Positions 37,357-64,000 of a stretch of DNA of 64,000 bases are shown here, in pieces. The stretch comes from Streptomyces violaceusniger Tu 4113. GTDB taxonomy: Bacteria; Actinomycetota; Actinomycetes; Streptomycetales; Streptomycetaceae. Where the stretch lies: NCBI RefSeq assembly GCF_000147815.2, contig NC_015957.1, forward strand, positions 4,464,001-4,528,000, written 5' to 3'. The notes beneath the pieces are model-generated. The model saw nothing but the letters and a program-made list of their open reading frames with translations, did not search any database and was not told where the DNA came from. Position 1 is the stretch's first letter; each line of letters begins with the position of its first letter. Made by a program: the position numbers and the translations under genes.

Positions 37357-39621
37357 ATGGCGGAGTATCTGAGCCCCGGGGTCTACATCGAGGAGATCGA
37401 TGCGGGCCCACGGCCGATCGCGGGGGTGAGCACCAGTACGGCGGGTATGGCCGGGGTCACCGTACGCGGTCCGTATACCGGCAAGCCCAAGCTGGTCACC
37501 AACTTCCTGGAGTTCCAGAACACCTTCGGCGGATTTCTCCGTGAGCCGGACCCGCTGATCCGGGACACCTGGGCGAACGACCCGGCGGAAGGCGGCCGTT
37601 GGTGGCTGTTCCCGCTGGCGGTCAAGGGCTTCTTCGACAACGGCGGCCAGCGGCTGTACATCAAGCGGGTCGCCAGCAGGCAGGCGAGCCCGTCCTCGGG
37701 CGTGCTGGGCCACGGCCTGGTGAGCCCGGTCGCCCGCGACGCCGCCAAGGGCGCGACCCGTCTGGAGCTCGGCCACCTGATCGGGTTCTCCGGCGTCGGA
37801 CAGCAGATCCAGCTCTTCCGCGGCGACGACCAGCAGTCGATCCACACCGCCGGTGTCGCCGCGTACGACGCCACCGCCCGCCGGATCGAGCTGGACGCCC
37901 CGCTGCCCGCGGAGGTGAGGGCGGGCCGCGGCGACTACGTACAGATCGGGACGCGCAACGCGGAGGAGACACTGGAGTTCGCCGCCGTCAGCCCCGGCTC
38001 ATGGGGCGACGGGGTACAGGTCCGGATCCAGCCGATGGCCTCGGCCGCGCTGCCGGTGCTGCCGGATCCGCAGGAGGGCGCGCTGTTCGTCACGCGGCTG
38101 GCCGCGGACGCCGCCGCGGACAGTGAGACGGTCGAGGTCGCGGCGGTGACCGGGCTCGACCCCGACGAACTGCCGCCCGACGTCTGGGTGCAGATCGGCT
38201 CCAGCCGGTTCAAGGTCCAGCTCAGCCAGCCCGCGGACGGGAAGGTCACGCTGACCCTGCCGTCCGGCACCGCACATGAGGCGTGGCGGAGCGGGCTGCT
38301 GGTGCGCCGCGTGCGCCGGGGCACGACCTCGGCGGGGCCGACGCTGCGGATCGGCGGAGCGAGCCGACTGTACGAGGGCGCCGTCGTCCAGCTCGACGAC
38401 GGCACCCATCTGACCATCCGCACCGTCGAGTCGATCGCCGCGGACGTCGTCACCCTGGACGGGAACGTGCCCGGGACGCTGTTCGAAACCGACCGGCTGC
38501 AACTGGTCGAGGCGCAGGTCGACGCCCGGTTCACCGATCCGTCCGGGGCCGTGGAGACGGAGACGCACCGCAACCTCCGGCTCACCGGTGACACCGCGGC
38601 GAACCTGGTGACCACCCTGGCAGTGCGCTCCCGGCTGGTGCGGGCGACGGCTCTGGGCGCCCTGTCCACCGACCCGGCGAAGTTCCCCCTGCCCGCGGTC
38701 GGCTCCTGGCTGACGCTGGGAGGCGGGGACGACGCCTACGGGAGCCTGAGCGTGGCCGACTTCGTCGGCGAGGACGGCGGCAGCGGCAAGCGCACCGGGA
38801 TCAACGCGCTGGAGGACATCGACGAGGTCGCGGTCTGCGCGGTGCCGGGCATGTGGTCAGGGACGGTCGAATCGGCCCTGGTCACCCACTGCGAGCTGCT
38901 CAGGGACCGGTTCGCGATCCTCGACCCGCAGGACGGTCTGGACATCGAGGGCGTCCAGGCGTTCCGCGAGCGGTTCGACACCAAGTACGCCGCGCTCTAC
39001 CACCCGTGGCTGGTCACCCGCGATCTGTCGGTGGGCCGCGATGCCGAGGTGCCGCCCTCGGGCCATATGGCAGGGATCTACGCCCGCGTGGATGTGGAGC
39101 GGGGGGTGCACAAGGCGCCCGCCAACACGGTCATCCGGGGCATCCGGCTGACCGACGGCATCGCCCAGGACATCACCAAGCGCCATCAGGACGTGCTCAA
39201 CCCCAAGGGCATCAACGCGCTGCGGTTCTTCCCCGGGCTCGGCCACCGGGTCTGGGGCGCGCGCACGCTCTCCTCGGACAGCTCGTGGAAGTACGTCAAC
39301 GTCCGGCGGCTGTTCCTCTACCTGGAGGAGTCGATCGAAGAGGGCACCCAGTGGGTGGTGTTCGAGCCGAATGACGAGGCGCTGTGGTCCCTGGTCCGCC
39401 AGACGGTCACGAACTTCCTCACCACGGTCTGGCGCAGCGGCGCCCTCGCCGGCACCACCGCCGACGAGGCGTTCTTCGTCGCCTGTGACCGCACCACGAT
39501 GACCGAGGACGACCTCGCGAACGGCCGTCTGATCTGCGCCATCGGCGTCGCGCCGGTCTTCCCGGCGGAGTTCGTGATCTTCCGGATCCAGCAGAAGAGC
39601 CGCGAGACCCAACTCGCCTGA
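37357..39621 (+). CDS. Contractile sheath protein, large (Pvc2/3-like)
   Basis: A 754-residue tail sheath protein. The N-terminus (LSPGVYIEEIDAGPRPIAGVSTS) and C-terminal domain (INALRFFPGLGHRVWGARTLS, NVRRLFLYLEESIEEGTQWVVFEPNDE, FRIQQKS) match phage_sheath families. An inserted region of about 300 residues in the middle (about 130-440) makes it much longer than T4-like or AFP sheaths, and this insert should lie on the outer surface. The sheath contracts to drive the tube. It follows AAGGAG and a 10-base gap from the previous gene. Confidence 0.95.
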   Translation: MAEYLSPGVYIEEIDAGPRPIAGVSTSTAGMAGVTVRGPYTGKPKLVTNFLEFQNTFGGFLREPDPLIRDTWANDPAEGGRWWLFPLAVKGFFDNGGQRLYIKRVASRQASPSSGVLGHGLVSPVARDAAKGATRLELGHLIGFSGVGQQIQLFRGDDQQSIHTAGVAAYDATARRIELDAPLPAEVRAGRGDYVQIGTRNAEETLEFAAVSPGSWGDGVQVRIQPMASAALPVLPDPQEGALFVTRLAADAAADSETVEVAAVTGLDPDELPPDVWVQIGSSRFKVQLSQPADGKVTLTLPSGTAHEAWRSGLLVRRVRRGTTSAGPTLRIGGASRLYEGAVVQLDDGTHLTIRTVESIAADVVTLDGNVPGTLFETDRLQLVEAQVDARFTDPSGAVETETHRNLRLTGDTAANLVTTLAVRSRLVRATALGALSTDPAKFPLPAVGSWLTLGGGDDAYGSLSVADFVGEDGGSGKRTGINALEDIDEVAVCAVPGMWSGTVESALVTHCELLRDRFAILDPQDGLDIEGVQAFRERFDTKYAALYHPWLVTRDLSVGRDAEVPPSGHMAGIYARVDVERGVHKAPANTVIRGIRLTDGIAQDITKRHQDVLNPKGINALRFFPGLGHRVWGARTLSSDSSWKYVNVRRLFLYLEESIEEGTQWVVFEPNDEALWSLVRQTVTNFLTTVWRSGALAGTTADEAFFVACDRTTMTEDDLANGRLICAIGVAPVFPAEFVIFRIQQKSRETQLA

Positions 39622-39641
39622 GTGCCCGAGGAGAGTCCACC

Positions 39642-40097
39642 ATGCCGCCTGTGACCAGGGACGATCCGTACGCGTCCTATAACTTCAAGATCTTCGTGTT
39701 CAACGTCAGCGACGACGGGCTCGCGGTGAGCGGGTCCTTCACCGAGGCGAGCGGGCTGGAGCTGGAGATCCCGCCGATCGAATACCGCAACGGGAGCGAG
39801 GACATCACCGTCCGCAAGATCCCGGGACTGAAGAAGTTCACCAACCTCACCTTCAAACGCGGCATCACCGGCCACGCCGCCTTCTGGAAGTGGGTGGCCG
39901 ACGCGCTCAACGGCACGGTGAAGCGCACCCACGGCTCGATCGTGCTGTGCGACGAGAACCGCAACGACGTGATGCGCTGGAACTTCGACCGTGGCTGGCC
40001 CACCAAGTACACCGGCCCGACGCTCAGCGCCACCAAGAACGAGATCGCCATGGAGACACTCGTCCTGGCGGTCGAGAAGCTGGAGATCGAAGTCTGA
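39642..40097 (+). CDS. Inner tube protein (Pvc1/gp19-like)
   Basis: A 151-residue T4-gp19-like tail tube protein: MPPVTRDDPYASYNFKIFVFN, ASGLELEIPPIEYRNGSEDIT, GLKKFTNLTFKRGITGHAAFWKWV. It forms the rigid tube that is driven out of the contracting sheath and carries cargo inside. The order sheath-then-tube, with GAGGAG before the ATG, is conserved in this class. Confidence 0.95.
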   Translation: MPPVTRDDPYASYNFKIFVFNVSDDGLAVSGSFTEASGLELEIPPIEYRNGSEDITVRKIPGLKKFTNLTFKRGITGHAAFWKWVADALNGTVKRTHGSIVLCDENRNDVMRWNFDRGWPTKYTGPTLSATKNEIAMETLVLAVEKLEIEV

Positions 40098-40098
40098 C

Positions 40099-41592
40099 AT
40101 GGCAGGCGAAGCGCTCCCCGGCGTATCCCTCGCGTTCGCGCCACGCGACTCCGACACGGAGCCGCTGCGCACCGATGTGGCGGCGTTCCTGGGCCGGCTC
40201 CGCCGCGGCCCGGTCGCCACTCCGGTCCGCGTGGAGAGCTGGAACGACGTCGTGGGCACCTTCGGGCCGCCGGAGGGCGCCTTCGCCACCCCGTACGCAC
40301 TGCGCGGCTTCTTCGAGAACGGCGGCCGCACCGCCTGGGTGCTCCGCGTGTCCGGGCCGGCCACCACGGGCCGGACAGCGTGGACGGCCGGGCCGCTGAG
40401 CGGCTGGGACACCACGCGCTACCAGGTGGTCGCCACCAGCCCGGGCGCCTGGGCCAACGGCGGGCGCGTCGCCATCCGTTACCAGGCCAGCACCGTCGCC
40501 GGGCCGCCCACCGTGGGCGTACGGGTCATGATGCCCGGTGAGCCGCCCGAGACCTTCCCCGGACTGCCGCCCGCCGGGCTGGCCGACCGGCTGATCGCAT
40601 CCCGCTACATCCGGCTGGTCCCGGACGGGCCGCCACCGCCACCGGGGCGGCCCGGCCCGATCTCGATGTCCTGGGACCTGACGCTCGCGGGCGGCGCCGA
40701 CGCTGCGCCCACCCGCGACGCGTACACGGACGCCGTGGCCGTACAGGCCGAACTGCCGGAACCGGCGCTGGTGGCGCTGCCGGACCTGGGCGCGGACCTG
40801 TCCGGCGCCGCCCACACCGACGCGGTGCTCGAACTGCTGCGGAGCGTACAGCCGTTGCACGACCGCCTCGCCGTGCTGGACGTGCCGCCCGGGCTGTCCT
40901 CCGTGGACCAGGCGGTCGACTGGGTGGGCGCTCTCGCGGCCACCGGCGACAGCGGGCTGCTCGGCTGCGCCGCCGTCTACCACCCGCCGCTGCGCACCCC
41001 CGACGGGCAGGACGTGCGCACCGTCCCGGCGTCCGGCCACGTCCTGGGCGTCATCGCCCGCCTCGACGGCGAGCGCGGGGCGCACCACACGCCCGCGGGC
41101 GCCGTGATCCTGGAGGCGGTCGACCTCGCCGCCGAATACCCCGAGCCGCAGCAGATCCGGCTGTTCGACGCGGGACTCGACCTGATCCGCTGCACCCGCG
41201 GGCGGGGGCTGGTGGTGTGGGGCGGGCGCACCCTGTCCGCCGACCCGGGCACCCGCTACGTCGCCCACCGCCGGCTGGTGCATCTGCTGGTGCGCGCGAT
41301 CCGGCGGGCGGCGAGCCCGCTGGTGTTCGACGTCAACTCGGCCGAGCTGCGGCTGACGTTGGTACGCGCGCTGACCTCCGTGCTCCTCTCGGCCTACCGG
41401 GCCGGGGCCCTCGCCGGCGCCCGGCCCGAGCAGGCGTTCCGAGTGGTGTGCGACGACACGAACAACCCGCCCGAGCAGGACCCGGGGCAACTGGTCTGCG
41501 AGATCGAGGTCGCCCCGGCCGTCCCCATGGAGTTCATCCGGCTGCGTCTCGTACTCGGCCAGGACCGAGGTCTGGAGGTGATCGAGGCGTGA
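40099..41592 (+). CDS. Second sheath-like protein (Pvc4-like)
   Basis: A 497-residue protein with the sheath N-terminal topology (LPGVSLAFAPRDS, ALRGFFENGGRTAWVLRV) and the sheath C-terminal domain (QIRLFDAGLDLIRCTRGRGLVVWGGRTLS, RRLVHLLVRAIRRAA). It lacks the large insert of the main sheath. Position between the two tube genes matches the baseplate-proximal sheath of AFP/PVC. Its ATG is 1 base past the tube stop. It probably nucleates the sheath on the baseplate. Confidence 0.85.
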   Translation: MAGEALPGVSLAFAPRDSDTEPLRTDVAAFLGRLRRGPVATPVRVESWNDVVGTFGPPEGAFATPYALRGFFENGGRTAWVLRVSGPATTGRTAWTAGPLSGWDTTRYQVVATSPGAWANGGRVAIRYQASTVAGPPTVGVRVMMPGEPPETFPGLPPAGLADRLIASRYIRLVPDGPPPPPGRPGPISMSWDLTLAGGADAAPTRDAYTDAVAVQAELPEPALVALPDLGADLSGAAHTDAVLELLRSVQPLHDRLAVLDVPPGLSSVDQAVDWVGALAATGDSGLLGCAAVYHPPLRTPDGQDVRTVPASGHVLGVIARLDGERGAHHTPAGAVILEAVDLAAEYPEPQQIRLFDAGLDLIRCTRGRGLVVWGGRTLSADPGTRYVAHRRLVHLLVRAIRRAASPLVFDVNSAELRLTLVRALTSVLLSAYRAGALAGARPEQAFRVVCDDTNNPPEQDPGQLVCEIEVAPAVPMEFIRLRLVLGQDRGLEVIEA

Positions 41593-56234: not shown

Positions 56235-58123
56235 GCGCGCCCACCGCGCCGACCGTCGGCGGCACCGGCGGCACCGGCGGCACCGGCGGGACCGGCGACG
56301 AGGGTGAGCCCGGCGAGATCACGGTGCACCGGTGCACCGTGACGGTGGTCCGGCGCGGTGGGTGGAGCTGGGGGCCCGAGCCACGCGGTCTGGTCCGCCA
56401 GGTGGTCGAGGCCCTGCCGGAGTTGCTGGCGGACCACTTCGCCGAGCGGCTGGCGGCCGACGGGCCGGATGTGGAGATCACCGAGCCGCTGACCGTCACC
56501 GTCCGGCCGGGCCGGGACGGCTGGTCCGGCCGGACGGCGGGCGGCGGGCCGCCCGTCGAGGTCCACTTCGCGCCGGTGCCGATGGTGGAGGTCCCCGCCG
56601 AGGCGCCCGACACCGACGCCGTGTCGTTCGAGGAGTCCTTCGCGGCGGCGCCGGATCCGTGGACCGCCCCGAACGCCGCCGCGCTCTTCGCCGAACTCGC
56701 GGAGCGCGGCGAACTGGACGCGCTGCTCGCGCTGTTGCCGGACGCGTCGGTACGGGCGTATCTGCCGGCCCTGCTCGGCGTGGACGACACGGCGGCCGCC
56801 CGGCTGCTCGCCGAACTCGTCGGGCGCGCCCTCGCGGCAGACCCTCCGCCCGCCGGTCCGCACGGCGAGACCGCCCGTCCCGGGCCTGCCGAGCCGCTGC
56901 CCGAGCGGCTGCGCGCGGCGGTCGCGGGCGCCGACGCGGCGGACCTGCCGCGGCTGCTCGCCGACTTCCTGACGTCGGCGGACCGCGCGGAGGCGGTACG
57001 GCTGACCCGGCCCCCGGCCGGTCCGTACGACCCGGGCGCCGAGGAGCCGTCCGGCGCGGCGGGCGGCACCGGCGCGGTGGGTGGTGCCCCCGCCGGGGCG
57101 AGCACCGCCGCCGGGGTGCGCACCACCGGTGAGGTGCAGGTGTGGTCCGCCCTGCCCTTCCTGCTCGCCGGGCCGCTGGCCCGCATCGGATACCTCGACG
57201 CGATCGGGCCAGCCCTGTCCGGTGTCGAACTGGCCGAGGACGCCCCGCTGTTCGCGGCGGCCCTGGCGTACAAGGTGCTGGGCGCCACCGCACGCGGCTG
57301 GCGGCGCGCCGAACGGGACAGCGAGGCCGCGGCCGCCTTCGCCGGTCTCTCCCCGCCCCTCGACGAGGCGCGGCTGACCGCCTTCACCCGCCAGGTGCGC
57401 CCCGCGCTGCCGGTCCTCGACGGCGTCCTGGCGCTGGCCGTGTGCCGCGGCCACGACCCCGCCGACCCGCTGCTGCTCACGGGCGCCGACGACGGGCTGC
57501 TTCTCATCGACGCCCACGGCATGTTCCCGATCGCCTGGGCCGCGGAGGCCGCCGGGCTGCTGCCGCACTGGCAATCGTGCGGGCGGCCGCCCGTGCTGCT
57601 CTGCGACGGGCCCCTGCCCCCGGGCACCCTGCGCGACCTCGCCTCGGCGGGCGTGCCGTTCCTCACCGGCGTACGGCCGCTGCGCGGCGACCCGGTGGCG
57701 CGGCTGCCCTGGCGCACACCGCTGTGGAGCGCGCCGGGCGCCGCACCGGACCTGCGTCTCGCCGCGGAGCTGCCCGCCCACGCCCGGCGGTGCGCGGGCC
57801 TGGTGACCGCCCTGGTCACCGAGCGCCGGGCGGTGCCGCTCGCCCAGGACGGCGGTCTGGAGCGCACCGTCACCCTGGCCGCCGCGCTCGGCCTGTCCAC
57901 GATCGCCTGGACGCTCTGGCGCGAGCGCGAGACCCCGGATCCGCTCCTGGCCCTGGGCCGCTTCGCCGACCTGGCGGCCACGGTGCGGTTCGAGGCCGCG
58001 GCCGTCCGGGTGCGCGTCCCGATGGGACGGCGCCATGCGGACCTCCTGCGCGGCGGCCTGCTCGCCGATGTGCCCGACGTGGCCTGGCTGGGCGGCCGGA
58101 CCCTGACCTTCTCGGCCGGGTGA
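56231..58123 (+). CDS. CIS_TMP-like protein (annotated as tape measure family)
   Basis: A 630-residue protein. It starts with a Gly/Thr repeat (VGGTGGTGGTGG) and then the CIS_TMP-like N-terminal domain (ITVHRCTVTVVRRGGWSW, VVEALPELLADHFAERL, VEITEPLTVTV). The rest is two helical regions split by a Gly/Ala linker near residues 275-300; the second (about 300-520) includes VWSALPFLLAGPLARIGYLDAI and LLIDAHGMFPIAWAAEAAG. No long coiled coil typical of a classical tape measure is present, so it may be an assembly factor rather than the ruler. It precedes the ATPase gene, as Pvc14 precedes Pvc15. Confidence 0.7.
   Translation: MSAPTAPTVGGTGGTGGTGGTGDEGEPGEITVHRCTVTVVRRGGWSWGPEPRGLVRQVVEALPELLADHFAERLAADGPDVEITEPLTVTVRPGRDGWSGRTAGGGPPVEVHFAPVPMVEVPAEAPDTDAVSFEESFAAAPDPWTAPNAAALFAELAERGELDALLALLPDASVRAYLPALLGVDDTAAARLLAELVGRALAADPPPAGPHGETARPGPAEPLPERLRAAVAGADAADLPRLLADFLTSADRAEAVRLTRPPAGPYDPGAEEPSGAAGGTGAVGGAPAGASTAAGVRTTGEVQVWSALPFLLAGPLARIGYLDAIGPALSGVELAEDAPLFAAALAYKVLGATARGWRRAERDSEAAAAFAGLSPPLDEARLTAFTRQVRPALPVLDGVLALAVCRGHDPADPLLLTGADDGLLLIDAHGMFPIAWAAEAAGLLPHWQSCGRPPVLLCDGPLPPGTLRDLASAGVPFLTGVRPLRGDPVARLPWRTPLWSAPGAAPDLRLAAELPAHARRCAGLVTALVTERRAVPLAQDGGLERTVTLAAALGLSTIAWTLWRERETPDPLLALGRFADLAATVRFEAAAVRVRVPMGRRHADLLRGGLLADVPDVAWLGGRTLTFSAG
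56257..56296 (+). repeat. 9-base tandem repeat encoding Gly-Gly-Thr
   Basis: GGCGGCACC repeated about four times with slight variation at the start of the CIS_TMP-like gene. Confidence 0.7.
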
Positions 58124-58128
58124 GGCAC

Positions 58129-60231
58129 ATGGGCGAACCAGCGCTTGAGCATCTGCGGATCCGGCTGGCGGGCCTGCACCGGGCGCTCAGGACCGCCGTC
58201 GAGCGCCAGGCGGCGCTCGCCGCCCGGCTCACCAGGCCCGACCTCACCCCGTACTGCGTGACCGACGAACAGGTCGACGTGCTGCTGGGCGAGGTGCACG
58301 CCTTCGCCGACACCATGGCCGAGCCGTACACCCCCCGGCAACCGGAGCCGGAAGCCGAACGGGACCTGAGGCGGCGCGCGTCCGCCGGGGGCACGACCCT
58401 GCCGCTGGACGCGCTCGCCACCCGATTCGGCCTGACCCGCGCGGAGCAGGACGCCCTGCTCCTGGCCGCCGCGCCCGAACTGGACCGCGGCTATGAGCGG
58501 ATCTACGCCTACGTCGTGGACAACCTGAACCGGCGGCTGCCGAGCGTGGAGTTGCTGGTGGCCGTGGGCGCGGACCATGCGGCGGCCCGCCTCACCCTGC
58601 GCCGCTCCCTCGGTCCGGCCGGGCCACTGCGCCGGTACGGCCTGCTGCGCGCGCACGGCGAGGCCGCGGTCGAACTCGCCCAGGAACTGGTCCCCGGCCC
58701 CGGGGTGTTGGACTTCCTGCTGGGCTGGGGCGGGGATGTGGGACTGCTCGGCCACGACCCCGGCGAGGTCGCACCGCCGGAGCCGCGCGTGCTGTCCCCG
58801 TACCTCTCCTCGGACCGGCTCATCCGGCTGGGCCGGGCGCTGGGCTCCGGCGATCTCGACCTGGCCGGGCTGTGGGGCTGCCCGCCCGACGGCCAGCTCG
58901 ACGCCGTACAGGCGCTGGCCCGGGCCGCCGGAGCGCCGCTGCGCACCCTGACCGCCGACCCCGAGGCCGATCTGCGGACGGCCGCCGTGCTGGGCGCCGT
59001 GCTGTGGATCCCCACCGACGACCTGTACGGCGAGCAGCAGCGGCCCGCCGCCGACGCGGTGTCCGCCGCGCTGCTGCGCTCGCGTGTGCCGGTGTGCCTG
59101 ACCGGCCTGAAGCCCTGGCGCCCGGCGGGCCTGCTCGCCGCGCGCACGTACGCCGAACTCACCGTGCCCGTCCCCGGGTTCACCGAGCGCCGGGCGATGT
59201 GGTCGGCCGCGCTCCCGGACCTGAACGGCACCCTCCTCGAAGACCTCGCCGTCCGCTACCGGATGAGCGGCGGCGAACTGCGCGCCGTCGCCTCGGTCGC
59301 GGACGCCGGGGCACGCCTGGCCGGCAACGGACACCCGGAGCCGGTCGCCGACCACGTCGAGCCCGCCATCGCCACCGTCACCCGAGGCCGCGGCGGCAGC
59401 GCCGTGCACGCGATCACGCCCCGGCGCACCGTCGGGGACCTGGTCCTGCCCGATGTCCAGTTCCGCCAGATCCTGGAGATCGCGTCGGCCTTCCGCGCCT
59501 GGCCCCGGATCGCCGAGAGCTGGGGCTTCGCCCGCCGCTCGGGGCACGGCGGGGTCAAGGCGCTCTTCACCGGGGAGCCCGGAACCGGCAAGACCATGTC
59601 CGCCGAGATCGTCACCGGCATGCTCGGCCTGGAACTGCTCAAGGTGGACCTCGCCCAGGTCGTCTCCAAATGGGTGGGGGAGACGGAGAAGAACATGGAG
59701 ATCGCGTTCCGGCAGGCCGAGGAGAGCCAGGCCGTGCTGCTCTTCGACGAGGCCGACGCCCTGTTCGGCAAGCGCGGCGAGGTGAAGCACGGCACCGACC
59801 GCTACGCCAACCTGGAAGTCGGCTATCTGCTGCAACGCCTGGAGGCCAGCGACGGCCTGGTCATCCTGACCAGCAACCTGAAGGACAACATCGACCCGGC
59901 CTTCACCCGGCGCTTCCACTTCGTCGTCCACTTCCCCCGCCCGGCCGCCGCCGAACGCCGCAGACTGTGGCGCCTCGCCTTCCCCGAGGAGGCCCCGCTC
60001 GCGCCCGACGTGGACCTCGACGCCCTGGCCCGCCTGGACATGACGGGCGCCGCCATCGCCGCGGCGGCCCGCACGGCGGCACTGGCGGCGGCGGACGGAA
60101 GCGGCGACACGATTGCCATGCGCCATGTCGTACGTGGTGTGGCACGCCAGTTCCAACGCGAGGCCCGCCTGCTCCGCCCGGCCGAACTGGGCCCGCACGC
60201 CCATCTGCTCGACGACGGAACCCCGCGGTGA
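58129..60231 (+). CDS. AAA+ ATPase of the injection system (Pvc15-like)
   Basis: A 700-residue protein with an N-terminal helical domain (residues about 1-440, including a winged-helix-like LPLDALATRFGLTRAEQDALLLAAAPELD and a degenerate first AAA-like region) and a C-terminal AAA+ motor. Walker A is GEPGTGKT at 482-489, the pore-like KWVGETEKN at 514-522, Walker B LLFDEAD at 537-543, and arginine finger FTRRF. In AFP/PVC this ATPase is needed for particle assembly or cargo loading. The ATG start is used; a GTG three codons earlier overlaps the previous stop. Confidence 0.93.
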   Translation: MGEPALEHLRIRLAGLHRALRTAVERQAALAARLTRPDLTPYCVTDEQVDVLLGEVHAFADTMAEPYTPRQPEPEAERDLRRRASAGGTTLPLDALATRFGLTRAEQDALLLAAAPELDRGYERIYAYVVDNLNRRLPSVELLVAVGADHAAARLTLRRSLGPAGPLRRYGLLRAHGEAAVELAQELVPGPGVLDFLLGWGGDVGLLGHDPGEVAPPEPRVLSPYLSSDRLIRLGRALGSGDLDLAGLWGCPPDGQLDAVQALARAAGAPLRTLTADPEADLRTAAVLGAVLWIPTDDLYGEQQRPAADAVSAALLRSRVPVCLTGLKPWRPAGLLAARTYAELTVPVPGFTERRAMWSAALPDLNGTLLEDLAVRYRMSGGELRAVASVADAGARLAGNGHPEPVADHVEPAIATVTRGRGGSAVHAITPRRTVGDLVLPDVQFRQILEIASAFRAWPRIAESWGFARRSGHGGVKALFTGEPGTGKTMSAEIVTGMLGLELLKVDLAQVVSKWVGETEKNMEIAFRQAEESQAVLLFDEADALFGKRGEVKHGTDRYANLEVGYLLQRLEASDGLVILTSNLKDNIDPAFTRRFHFVVHFPRPAAAERRRLWRLAFPEEAPLAPDVDLDALARLDMTGAAIAAAARTAALAAADGSGDTIAMRHVVRGVARQFQREARLLRPAELGPHAHLLDDGTPR

Positions 60232-60545
60232 AGCCGATGCTGCCCACCGAACCCCCGCTCCCCCTCCACCGCCTGGTGGCCCCGATCCCACCGGCCCGCC
60301 CCCGGGAGGTCGCGGCCGCCACCCACCAGGTACCGGCTCCGGCGCCGGTACAGGCAGTGCCGGTGCCGGTGAGCAACGCGACGGTGGCCCACGGCATGCA
60401 CGCGCCGGCCAAGACACCACCGACTGCTGCCCAGGACCAGCTCGGCAACGCAGCCACAACCAAAGCGGCCGCACAGGCGACCCCGGCTGCACCGCTGCTC
60501 GTCATGCCGATGAAGACGCGTTGCGAGGACGCGCCGAGTCGGTAG
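60228..60545 (+). CDS. Proline/alanine-rich short protein, possible truncated gene
   Basis: A 105-residue low-complexity protein (Pro, Ala, Val; PVQAVPVPVSNATVAHG), start GTG overlapping the ATPase stop. No fold is recognised. In many eCIS clusters a cargo or DUF4157 gene follows the ATPase, so this could be the N-terminal remnant of one. Its last 20 residues (KTRCEDAPSR end) lie over an antisense fragment of a different gene, so the true C-terminus may have been lost. Alternatively it is a natural disordered signal or scaffold peptide. Confidence 0.5.
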   Translation: MKPMLPTEPPLPLHRLVAPIPPARPREVAAATHQVPAPAPVQAVPVPVSNATVAHGMHAPAKTPPTAAQDQLGNAATTKAAAQATPAAPLLVMPMKTRCEDAPSR

Positions 60546-60659
60546 CCGCAGAGAAGCCGAGGGGTCGGCTGCCTGCGAACGAAGGTAGTCGAACGCCAAC
60601 TTATAGGCCCCGACGTCTTCTGCATCGTCCAGATACAGGCCACGACGACGCAACTCGAG
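60537..60659 (-). pseudogene. Fragment resembling the C-terminus of a DUF5753/Scr1-type regulator
   Basis: The minus strand reads RRRGLYLDDAEDVGAYKLAFDYLRSQAADPSASL, the pattern seen at the C-terminus of Streptomyces Scr1/DUF5753 helix-turn-helix proteins (LYLE..DV..Y...FD.LR..ALSP). No helix-turn-helix part precedes it; upstream sequence is the kinase fragment in another frame. It is read as a remnant joined by recombination. Confidence 0.5.
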
Positions 60660-60951
60660 TCCAGAGGCCGCCGTAGGCGTTCTTGGGGCGGCCGGCCTTG
60701 CGTGCCGCGACCGCTTCGGGCGTGGGGGCGAGGGCGACCAGGTAGAGGGGTCTGTTCGTCACGGCGTCGAGGTAGGCGTCGAGGCGCTTGCGGAGGACCA
60801 CGTCTTGGACGGCGACGGTCCATCCTGCCTGTGCGTACAGATCTGCGAGCGCGGCGGATGCTTGGTAGCGCAGTCGCAACTGTGCCGTCGCCTCAGCGGT
60901 TGGCTGGGGCGTGAACTCCTCGCGACCGGACACGATCATCCGCCGGAAGCT
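60658..60951 (-). pseudogene. P-loop kinase/phosphotransferase fragment, truncated at both ends
   Basis: The minus strand encodes SFRRMIVSGREEFTPQPTAE, LRLRYQASAALADLYAQAGWTVAVQDVV, and RPLYLVALAPTPEAVAARKAG ending AYGGLWT. This matches the middle of actinobacterial P-loop phosphotransferase/zeta-toxin-like kinases. The N-terminal Walker A is missing: homology stops at about 60951, exactly where the next gene ends at 60950. After AYGGLWT, homology passes to the unrelated DUF5753-like text. A frame with an ATG at 60939 exists but would lack the ATP-binding site, so the product should be inactive. Confidence 0.65.
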
Positions 60952-61579
60952 ATGCCTCGACCTTGCGCCGCAGCTCCTCGACCCGCTCGACCAATTCTCG
61001 TGCCGCTCCCAGAAGCTCCTCCTCGGCGCCGGGGTCCCAGTCGCTCACCTGACGCTCCGTCTCGCGCAGTTCCTCGAGATGAAGTTCCTCCAGCACCGTC
61101 ATCAGGGATTCGCCCCGCCGTTTGACCCTGTCGCGACGAGCGGTCTTCTCTCGCAGCCTGAAGACGGTCGGCCGCCCTGCGGCGAGCTCGGACAGCCGGT
61201 AGCAGAGCACCTCCTTGTTTTCCCAGGATGGGCTCTGCGTGCCGAGCGTGTAGCCGAGAGGTAGGAGATCGGGGTCGAGCGCGAGGAGCTTTTGCTCCGT
61301 CCCGTCGGATGGGTCCGGGGCGGCCACCGGACCGCCCCGGGCCGGTGGGACGGCCAGCCACCACGGCTGATGGGTGCACACGAGCAGGAGGCCGAGACGC
61401 CACAGGTCGGCCTCGGCGAGTACGAGGAACTCTCTCGGCAGGTCGACTCCGTAGCACTCGCGCATGACCTCCGGCACGGACAGACCATTCTCGTACAGGG
61501 CGTGCGCCAGACTGGCCATCGAGGAGTAGTCCTCGCGGGACGCCTCCGCCCGCAGCTGCCGGAGTGCGGACTCGTCCAC
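60950..61579 (-). CDS. Partner protein of the large cargo-like gene, 209 aa, unknown function
   Basis: A 209-residue soluble protein, starting at a GTG directly after the TAA of the large upstream gene, with GGGAAGAAG as ribosome site. Two halves are seen: an N-terminal part with hydrophobic helices (EFLVLAEADLWRLGLLLVCTHQPWWL) and a highly charged C-terminal coiled-coil (LTVLEELHLEELRETERQV to ELVERVEELRRKVEA). It is not a known immunity family. Tight coupling to the cargo-like gene suggests an immunity protein, chaperone or loading adaptor. Its stop codon coincides with the break in the kinase fragment. Confidence 0.7.
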   Translation of the reverse strand: MDESALRQLRAEASREDYSSMASLAHALYENGLSVPEVMRECYGVDLPREFLVLAEADLWRLGLLLVCTHQPWWLAVPPARGGPVAAPDPSDGTEQKLLALDPDLLPLGYTLGTQSPSWENKEVLCYRLSELAAGRPTVFRLREKTARRDRVKRRGESLMTVLEELHLEELRETERQVSDWDPGAEEELLGAARELVERVEELRRKVEA

Positions 61580-64000
61580 TTACTTCTTCCCCGCTTCCGT
61601 GTTCTTCGCTGCTTCCGCGTTCTGCATGGCCTCGGCCTTGGCCTTCTTCAGTAGGAGGGACAGCTTCCGCCAGACGCTCTTGAGTTCGTCTGCAGTCAAT
61701 GCGGTGATGATCTCGCGCGTCATGGCTTCCGCTCTCACGAGGATGTCGTGCAGTCTTTGCTCCCCGGATTTGCGGTTCGCCTGCGGCGGGAGCTTCCCGA
61801 GGTATTCCCGGACTGATTTTTCCATGGTCGCGATGCGTTGCTGGATCTTCGGGTCGTCCACCGTCAGGTCCGGGTTGTCGACCATCATCTTGACGGTGGC
61901 CTCCACATGAGAGAAGACGTCCGCCCGAACGAAGTTCTTGGCCGGGAGGCCCAAGCCCTGGTTCGCCAGGAAGAGCTCGTTGGCCAGCACTTGCGCGTTT
62001 GCCATCGACTGCGACTGCAGCATGATCGCGTACGCCATGTGGCGTTTGCTGCGCGTGCTCAGCCCGCGTACCGCGAGTTTGCGGCCGAGGTCGTTCAGCT
62101 TCGCGTCGGTGCTGACGGACGCGCTCTGGTCATGGACGATGGAGAAGGCGCTGCCGTAGAGACGCAACAGCCACTTGCGGAAGCTGCGCCCTTCCCCTTC
62201 GCCGAAACCAAAGGGAAGTTCGTCCTTGGCCGCTGCGTCGGCCCGATGCTGCATCATCTGGAAAACGCCGTTCCGGCGATTCTCGTCCCAGACCTTTACC
62301 AGGGTGTTGGGCTCGGTGGGGTACGTCATCTCCGGGATGTGCCGGGCGACGGCCGCCCGGACCGCCCGGTCGATCGCGTTGGCGAGCTGCGTCAGCTGGA
62401 CCACCCGCTCCTGCGCACCCTCCTCCCACTTGAGCTCCTCGAAGTCATAGCCACCGACGATCAAGACCGGGTCGCCGTCGATGTTGCGGAGGATCTGGTC
62501 GTATGCGGCCAGTACGCCGCGGCCCTTGGGGGCGCGGACGCCGCCGTCGGGGTCCTGGCTCAGGACCTGCACCTGCCGGTTGACCTTGCTGAGGACGGAT
62601 ACCGCCTGCTTGGTGTGCGAGGACGTGAAGACGTGTCCGCGCAGGAGCCCGTACGGTACCGCCTTCGCCCGCTTGCTGCCGATGCCCTTCGCCTCCTCGG
62701 CACGTGCGGCTGTCTTGTGCGCGTTGTCCAAGCCGTCGTACGCGTTTTTCACCGTGCTGAACGGAGCGGTCTTCTTGCTGTTGATGTCGAACCATTGCGG
62801 AGTCCAGACGAAGCCAAACGCGATCATGCGCAGCTTGTCCGGGCGCACAATCGCCCCCAGTGCCTGGGAGATCGCGGGGACGCCGCTCTTCGAGCGAGTC
62901 GGGTCCAGGCGTTCGGCGGAGTTGACGCCGATGATGACGGCGGTCCTGGCCCAGGCCACCTTCTTTTCCGGAGAGCCGGTCCATGCCTCTTCGAGATAGC
63001 GTGCGGCGATCCTCGGCTTTCCCTTCACCTCGTTGGGTGTCGCCACCATGGTGATGACGAAGGCGGCCGGATGCTTCTCCCGCATGGGGGGGTCGATGTC
63101 GTGAAGAGCGCCGGCCGACACACCGGCCTCGGTGAGCTCGGTCGACGCCGTGGCTTTGCCGATTTTGTAAGGGAAGAGCGTCTTGAGTGGGGTCTTTTTC
63201 TTGGGATTGATAGAGACGGTGATGAAGTAGGTATTTTGGGCCGATTTTCCGAGTTCGATGCGGGAGAGGCCGTGGCGCGCTTTGATGGCCGGAAGCCCTC
63301 GCCGTATGGTCTCCTCCGTCGCCGACTTGGCGTCCAGCAGACGCATCGCCTCGCGTACGGCGGCGTCGAGGGCCCGCAGCATGTTCTTCTTGGACCGTTT
63401 GCCGGGCCGCTTCCTCTTCGGGTCGCGCCGCCGCTTGGGCCTGCGCCGGTCGGGACGGCGCCGCTGGTCCGGACGCTTCCGTCGGCGTGGGCCGCCCGGC
63501 CGCTTCCGGTCCGGGCGGCGCTTCGGTTTCGGCTTGGGCTTCTTCTTGTCGAAGGCGGACTTGATCTTGGACCACAGCTTCTTCACCAGGCCCACGATCT
63601 TGTCGATCACCCAGTCCACCGCCCGGTTCACCGGTTTGGACATGGCCTGGACGATCCCCTTGACGCGGGACGCGATCCCGCCCACGCCCAGGATCGCGGC
63701 GAGGACGCCCAGCAGGACCGGGATGGAGCGGGCCAGGGCCTGCTCGATCAGGCCAGGGACGCCGCCCTGGCCGCCCCTGGCGATCGCGATGACCGCGTCG
63801 AGCACGGCGTTCACGAACTCGAAGATCTGGCGGGCCTGGGTGACGATGAACCGCACGATGTCGATGATCAGCTTCACCGCCCGCACGAACGCCGACGCGG
63901 GATTGAGCAGCGAGATCACCCACATGATCCCGGCGACGACGATCGTCGGCGTGACATAGGCGATGACCTTGTCCAGCAGGTCCTTGCGCAGATCGCCCAC
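61580..64000 (-). CDS. Large eCIS cargo-like protein, C-terminal 806 aa (5' end beyond window)
   Basis: The frame is open at the right edge, so the N-terminus (often a DUF4157 metallopeptidase-like domain in this class) is not visible. Visible residues 1-150 form hydrophobic helices (LLDKVIAYVTPTIVVAGIMW, LIEQALARSIPVLLGVLAAILGVGGIASRVK), as in the middle region of DUF4157 eCIS cargo and other polymorphic toxins. Residues 151-206 are an extremely Lys/Arg/Pro-rich linker. About 207-270 is a small helix-strand domain. Residues about 271-806 form a C-terminal domain I cannot assign; it contains SQDPD (481-485), GGYDFEE (516-522) and YPTEPNT (560-566). It is probably a delivered effector of the nearby injection system. 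Confidence 0.75.
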   Translation of the reverse strand: MGDLRKDLLDKVIAYVTPTIVVAGIMWVISLLNPASAFVRAVKLIIDIVRFIVTQARQIFEFVNAVLDAVIAIARGGQGGVPGLIEQALARSIPVLLGVLAAILGVGGIASRVKGIVQAMSKPVNRAVDWVIDKIVGLVKKLWSKIKSAFDKKKPKPKPKRRPDRKRPGGPRRRKRPDQRRRPDRRRPKRRRDPKRKRPGKRSKKNMLRALDAAVREAMRLLDAKSATEETIRRGLPAIKARHGLSRIELGKSAQNTYFITVSINPKKKTPLKTLFPYKIGKATASTELTEAGVSAGALHDIDPPMREKHPAAFVITMVATPNEVKGKPRIAARYLEEAWTGSPEKKVAWARTAVIIGVNSAERLDPTRSKSGVPAISQALGAIVRPDKLRMIAFGFVWTPQWFDINSKKTAPFSTVKNAYDGLDNAHKTAARAEEAKGIGSKRAKAVPYGLLRGHVFTSSHTKQAVSVLSKVNRQVQVLSQDPDGGVRAPKGRGVLAAYDQILRNIDGDPVLIVGGYDFEELKWEEGAQERVVQLTQLANAIDRAVRAAVARHIPEMTYPTEPNTLVKVWDENRRNGVFQMMQHRADAAAKDELPFGFGEGEGRSFRKWLLRLYGSAFSIVHDQSASVSTDAKLNDLGRKLAVRGLSTRSKRHMAYAIMLQSQSMANAQVLANELFLANQGLGLPAKNFVRADVFSHVEATVKMMVDNPDLTVDDPKIQQRIATMEKSVREYLGKLPPQANRKSGEQRLHDILVRAEAMTREIITALTADELKSVWRKLSLLLKKAKAEAMQNAEAAKNTEAGKK
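63383..63550 (-). repeat. Low-complexity Lys/Arg/Pro-rich linker in the cargo-like gene
   Basis: Encodes about 56 residues made almost only of K, R, P and D in RRPDRRRPKRRR-like runs. It separates the hydrophobic region from the C-terminal domains. Confidence 0.85.

Follow-up and report, generated by a model that had tools for sequence, protein, structure and literature searches.

What does the gene pair beside a contractile injection system (CIS) of Streptomyces violaceusniger Tu 4113 encode? The pair stands at the right-hand end of the window, i.e., the whole stretch of 64,000 nucleotides analysed here (C3:4464001-4528000, where C3 is contig NC_015957.1), and an earlier note made from the letters alone had described it as a cargo-like protein with an unassigned C-terminal domain and an abutting partner. 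The effector has a modular anatomy in which the C-terminus and the partner gene are swapped jointly, and the partner, p209, is linked to one type of C-terminal domain, T1, and diverges together with it. We give an even chance to the reading that the larger gene encodes a Sle1-like polymorphic CIS effector, in which T1 would be a putative toxin of the glycosyltransferase A (GT-A) type and p209 the product of its cognate immunity gene.

Both predicted frames, of 209 aa (60950-61579) and 806 aa (61580-64000), are present on the minus strand, abut with zero gap and have the codon-position GC of real genes. The GTG at position 64000 proved to be the edge of the window only: the complete effector gene has 1562 codons and a GTG start, and extends to contig position 4530268, residue 1 of the frame in the window being residue 757 of the full-length protein. 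The true start is uncertain, and may be Met20, because the frames of two homologues (L014 and L019) open at the equivalent of this residue. The parts of the pair are as follows:

61580-64000, minus strand: C-terminal 806 residues of the effector, whose gene extends beyond the edge of the window as far as contig position 4530268 (L002:2580-7268)
63650-63979, minus strand: hydrophobic segments (residues 764-809 and 843-873, by Kyte-Doolittle) of the tape-measure-like chassis
63389-63553, minus strand: basic linker, residues 906-960 (34 lysines or arginines within residues 906-962)
63191-63388, minus strand: short module, residues 961-1026, common to effectors with other C-termini (L015, L016 and L017)
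61583-63142, minus strand: T1 toxin-like domain, residues 1043-1562, a putative GT-A-like transferase
60950-61579, minus strand: p209, which abuts the effector stop and is probably the cognate immunity protein

The chassis (residues 1-905) is Pro/Ala-rich and helical, with hydrophobic parts, and several phage tape-measure profiles of PHROG match it within residues 366-908 (best E 2.5e-11). The hydrophobic region, the basic linker and a C-terminal domain with no library match were all found as previously described, and the CIS cargo-like nature of the effector, with the tape-measure-like chassis as its N-terminus, is supported. The DUF4157 domain looked for upstream in the same protein was not there: once the sequence was extended to the right, no match to eCIS_core (DUF4157) was detected in the 1562-aa effector at E values up to 1, and its status as DUF4157 cargo was rejected. 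A DUF4157 domain elsewhere in the effector locus was rejected as well, the sole eCIS_core found in the genome being in another protein, P0002.

The chassis (query residues 401-905) was detected in 49 of the 392 genomes of the genus, the own genome counted; the genome searches with T1, the chassis and p209 scored only between 3 and 7 candidates in each genome, which makes their misses soft. In total, 57 chassis loci were analysed, and leaving out a fragment (L097), the C-termini of 56 of them were clustered (single linkage, with the first 130 residues cut off; blastp E 1e-5, minimum of 80 aa). This gave 27 clusters, the largest of which, with 17 loci, was T1; the comparison with other C-termini that had been called for thus revealed a conserved chassis with swapped ends. 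Among loci L012-L014 the chassis are 81-94% identical and the T1 domains 36-41%. Furthermore, 14 distinct loci have an ATPase that shares 80% identity or more with that of the window. At the same position, 12 of them carry T1 and p209, one (L016) carries the C-terminus T2 paired with a 222-aa partner, and one (L069) carries T4 paired with a third, different partner. In polymorphic toxin-immunity systems a conserved delivery part is combined with a swapped C-terminal domain and an adjacent cognate gene, and the conserved carrier, exchangeable C-terminus and adjacent exchangeable partner gene found here resemble that arrangement; unlike the usual systems of this kind, the carrier is a CIS tape-measure-like chassis, and the toxin and immunity families match no named family in the libraries searched.

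The partner gene follows T1 closely. Distinct T1 loci number 15 once L020, whose contig ends inside T1, and L068, which is the same locus as L023, are removed; the partner counts also drop L097, and L026, being the same locus as L014, was not counted. On this basis, all 15 distinct T1 loci whose downstream DNA is present have p209 within 48 bases of the effector stop, and none of the 39 non-T1 chassis loci has it (blastp E 1e-4), an association with a Fisher probability of 1.2e-13 when relatedness is ignored. A p209 profile search of the 392 genomes of the genus gave strong matches in 7, every one adjoining T1, and a single marginal match (E 0.001, 48 residues, genome G157). Across the 15 loci the p209 distances correlated with those of T1 (r 0.91; partial given the chassis 0.91; 0 of 5000 permutations), and with those of the chassis at r 0.31 (partial given T1, 0.40). 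In addition, counted from the start codon nearest to the effector stop, the partner gene overlaps this stop by 4 bases at 10 of 12 homologous loci; at the remaining two it begins 0 and 2 bases past the stop. This arrangement suggests translational coupling of the effector and p209. The abutting gene, for which an immunity protein was one of the three roles first named, behaves as an immunity gene would, and p209 is probably an immunity protein because it is linked to T1 and co-diverges with T1 rather than with the chassis.

The pair was also observed outside this CIS type: in L025 it adjoins a CIS that is more distant (partial matches, with 54% for the sheath and 47% for the ATPase), as if the pair had moved between CIS types. 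No CIS marker was detected in the DNA examined of L022 and L029, and the CIS linkage is not established for these two. As to the other C-termini, the partners of T2 at L015:4291-4929 (minus strand) and L016:7796-8464 (plus strand) share 73% identity and are unrelated to p209, and weaker relatives of them (35-36%) were seen in L079 and L082. The T4 C-termini (L069 and L071) have a common partner cluster in both loci and carry a CxxCN motif that resembles the one of HNH nucleases.

A scan of 84,980 species genomes for T1 gave 29 pattern matches, which resulted in 12 confirmed loci in Streptomyces, Actinophytocola, Actinacidiphila, Streptosporangium and Saccharopolyspora. With the own genome counted, T1 was found in 7 of 295 genomes of the genus (4 full-length, 3 partial), 3 of 394 of the class and 2 of 396 of the phylum. 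Distant relatives of T1 lie behind DUF4157 (L032 and L160), behind WXG100 (L030, a Saccharopolyspora protein) and behind an M91 peptidase-like domain (L018, and probably L036, which looks similar in sequence), and two T1-like domains were seen in tandem in a plasmid gene of 5316 codons (L161:2629-13053, plus strand) near an FtsK/SpoIIIE gene. In these fusions and in the tandem, T1 looks as mobile toxin domains do. The T1 of the window matched no plasmid or phage record, and an IMG/VR search gave 16 pattern matches, none of which was confirmed; the L030 query matched 2 plasmid records, and the L032 query matched no phage record. T1 is a putative toxin-domain family without a name in the libraries searched.

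An alignment of 20 T1 sequences, taken from 19 loci, shows 22 invariant residues, which include D197, D199, G230, Y232, Y274, E277, P278 and E317. The motifs singled out beforehand (SQDPD, GGYDFEE and YPTEPNT) all fall on invariant residues of this alignment and are not due to chance:

62546-62554, minus strand: DPD, the invariant DxD (T1 D197 and D199) of the SQDPD motif
62447-62455, minus strand: GGY motif (T1 230-232; G230 and Y232 invariant)
62306-62323, minus strand: YPTEPN motif (T1 274-279; Y274, E277 and P278 invariant)

A crude propensity estimate from the same 20 sequences predicts the order beta-alpha-beta-alpha-beta-alpha-beta(DxD)-alpha-beta, with PYGxxR and a helix before the DxD strand, which is followed by a helix, GGY, another helix and a strand that precedes EPN; the invariant D197 and D199 are thereby placed on a conserved, crudely predicted strand. 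Such a strand order, with the DxD on the fourth strand, PYGxxR upstream and EG downstream, is the pattern of GT-A sugar transferases, and nucleoside triphosphate (NTP) transferases have the GT-A fold too. T1 may have this fold with a likelihood of about one half, and a metal-dependent sugar transferase is our first choice, because the predicted strand order matches that of GT-A. Of the glycosyltransferase-like activity guessed at in the earlier note, the plausibility stood, given the invariant DxD and the GT-A-like strand order, and no significant hhalign match to the GT2 family accompanied it.

Under the preferred reading the effector would be a tape-measure-like, Sle1-like cargo of the neighbouring CIS. 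By analogy with the work on Sle1, its presumed coiled-coil and hydrophobic chassis would sit in the tube and be ejected upon contraction, and the hydrophobic helices and the basic linker would then carry T1 to or across a membrane. T1, most likely a metal-dependent sugar transferase of GT-A fold, would modify a target in the recipient or in kin hyphae, and p209 would bind T1 inside the producer as the cognate immunity protein, as its linkage and co-divergence suggest.

Several results weigh against this reading. The domain is indeed unmatched: Pfam and NCBIfam scans of T1 gave weak scattered matches only and no family, those of Pfam falling on one or two members of the T1 sets and being taken as chance, with CHASE3 as the strongest (E 0.0021, in 1 of 17 members), and comparison with PDB sequences gave no credible match to a glycosyltransferase or to anything else. 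The best PDB candidate, a leucine-rich repeat protein (E 0.0041), spans the alpha-helical tail only, and was rejected as chance. With profiles built from this genome (GT2, 26 sequences from 29 loci; GT-B control, 17 sequences from 21 loci), hhalign gave T1 against GT2, the one GT-A family compared, a Prob of 0.1-0.4, and against the GT-B control 0.1-0.6, so that T1 as a relative of GT2 is unsupported. T1 is thus like GT-A glycosyltransferase toxins in its DxD and its predicted strand order, and unlike them in having no detectable profile similarity to GT2. A Pfam scan of 13 members of p209 gave nothing better than E 0.047, and no p209 match was detected in the DNA examined of the T1 relatives L018, L030 and L032. 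In the loose T2 cluster, a related partner occurs in only 4 of 8 loci; the downstream-gene finder kept only frames with a third-position GC (GC3) above 0.7, and therefore missing partners outside T1 are no evidence of absence. A DUF4157 partner is absent from the effector locus, and therefore loading is unexplained; finally, the published Sle1 has no immunity gene according to the available text of PMC13277306. As a candidate family for p209, suggested by its sequence pattern, the SUKH (SMI1/KNR4) immunity proteins were rejected, with a hhalign Prob of 1.1 against a self-assembled set (29 sequences from 30 loci, some frames hand-chosen) and no SUKH match in the Pfam scans.

It is possible, though doubtful, that the pair is an effector with its immunity protein in which T1 is another metal enzyme on a DxD alpha/beta fold, i.e., a nucleotidyltransferase, a phosphotransferase or a nuclease-like enzyme. 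The lack of a credible glycosyltransferase family match and the occurrence of the GT-A fold in NTP transferases are in keeping with this, and the DxD with the invariant E277 and E317 would suit several metal enzymes; however, the DxD on the fourth strand, preceded by PYGxxR and followed by an invariant EG, is the arrangement of GT-A sugar transferases. A role of p209 as chaperone, adaptor or loader specific to T1 is unlikely. A cognate chaperone would also track T1 and be coupled to it, but p209 shows no such tracking of the chassis, the part that on the model of Sle1 is loaded into the tube, unrelated proteins occupy the same place next to other C-termini, and in the available text of PMC13277306 one Sle1-type effector, that of Micromonospora eburnea (RS14790/RS14785), is shown to have a downstream immunity gene. 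That T1 lacks toxicity and instead acts on the producer itself, modulating development or the membrane as the published Sle1 C-terminus does, is quite improbable: Streptomyces CIS do have roles in the cells that make them, namely in cell death and in sporulation (PMC10066040 and PMC13277306, available text), but the partner gene is constant, the C-termini are polymorphic, T1 relatives occur within WXG100 and DUF4157 proteins, and Sle1 is without an immunity gene.

The effector, read as Sle1-like, has to be set beside what is published. In the available text of PMC13277306, Sle1-type effectors (Sle1/Sle2 of the Streptomyces lividans SLP) are tape-measure-related proteins without DUF4157 that have dissimilar C-termini and associate with a DUF4157 partner, Sle2. 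The effector resembles this description, on which the likeness rests rather than on the Sle1 sequence (SLIV_17115), in its tape-measure-like N-terminus without DUF4157 (based on the PHROG profiles and the missing eCIS_core match), its place beside a CIS locus and its highly variable C-termini. Unlike them, it has no adjacent small Sle2-like DUF4157 partner, and its gene stands at the ATPase end, ~20 kb from the sheaths, not beside a sheath gene; in 26 chassis relatives that are 54-59% identical (L071-L096), a sheath frame lies at the effector start side in 23. A separate DUF4157 frame abuts the chassis gene in L017:8672-9481 and L098:13547-14818 (minus strand), as might be expected of a Sle2-Sle1 pair. 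The claim of a new effector type was too strong, because a very similar chassis class is already published (PMC13277306, available text). From there, both this class of chassis and the swapping of ends as a principle are known; no description was found of T1, of p209 or of a missing DUF4157 partner, and the titles and abstract openings of the literature searched, supplements lying outside that search, describe neither T1 nor p209.

Another comparison is with Tme of Streptomyces davawensis, which in the available text of PMC11126660 is likewise tape-measure-related, with hydrophobic helices, a segment like a cell-penetrating peptide and a C-terminal enzyme, but has DUF4157 and an EndA-like nuclease, unlike the effector. 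It is P0002 of the genome's second CIS that resembles Tme: this 2182-aa protein (L003:1866-8414, minus strand), ~6 kb from the genome's other sheath, combines DUF4157 with Endonuclea_NS_2, and its eCIS_core lies at C3:6300057, 1.8 Mb from the effector. Toxins of extracellular CIS (eCIS) are described in PMC8213781 and PMC11297309, and some immunity genes in PMC8213781; in that large survey, most newly verified antibacterial eCIS toxins have no recognisable immunity gene. The word glycosyltransferase does not occur in the main text of PMC13277306, nor in the available text of PMC8213781 and PMC11297309. Other Streptomyces effectors are Sco4256-4258 (PMC10066040, available text).

The neighbouring injection system is real, with sheaths, tube, spike, baseplate and AAA ATPase all found. 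The window holds a Pvc16-type protein, sheath, tube, a CIS_tube/LysM protein, spike, gp25 and baseplate J; the hub gave a weak match, and the CIS12 and CIS13 models partial matches below their cut-offs.

57970-60231, plus strand: CIS AAA ATPase (Pfam AAA 1.5e-24, WHD 8.8e-25), convergent with the effector pair
37357-39621, plus strand: CIS sheath (Pfam Phage_sheath_1C 4e-20, Phage_sheath_1 7e-15)
39642-40097, plus strand: CIS tube (Pfam Phage_T4_gp19 1.4e-37)
39991-41592, plus strand: frame with a second sheath (Phage_sheath_1 at 40858-41235, E 1.1e-8), its start not fixed, overlapping the tube gene
60228-60545, plus strand: 105-aa Pro/Ala-rich protein overlapping the ATPase stop, with a QDQLGNAA peptide similar to one at the effector N-terminus

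The two sheath genes flank the tube gene, one per side (37357-41592, plus strand). Between the ATPase and the pair lies a 112-aa frame (60601-60939, minus strand), which gave only weak Pfam matches below the cut-offs and, by blastp at E 0.01, no relative among the 56 other chassis loci; the repeats around the pair showed nothing telling. Of the 14 distinct loci with this CIS type, the own locus counted, 13 hold a relative of the 105-aa protein, and none was detected in L070. All 13 carry the peptide [QH][DNH][QR]xGNAA, 8 of them in the form QDxxGNAA, and Q[DN]xxGNxA is found at the effector N-terminus in all 14 loci, a likeness given without a chance level between two proteins that are both of biased composition. 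It is a speculation that a docking peptide common to both proteins replaces Sle2, which would explain loading. The wider proposal, taken jointly, is a tentative and rather doubtful one: T1 would be a new toxin family of GT-A sugar transferases, spread across WXG100 proteins and the cargo of CIS, both tape-measure-like and DUF4157, p209 a new immunity family within the CIS lineage, and loading without a DUF4157 partner would proceed via an N-terminal QDxxGNxAV peptide that the small ATPase-coupled protein also carries.

What this class of cargo offers is a pair of putative toxin and partner that can be tracked by sequence, through which one can test directly whether Streptomyces CIS of this kind act on other bacteria or on kin. 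The T1 family can serve to locate effectors, be it with CIS or with WXG100 proteins, and the effector itself is a case that may load without DUF4157.

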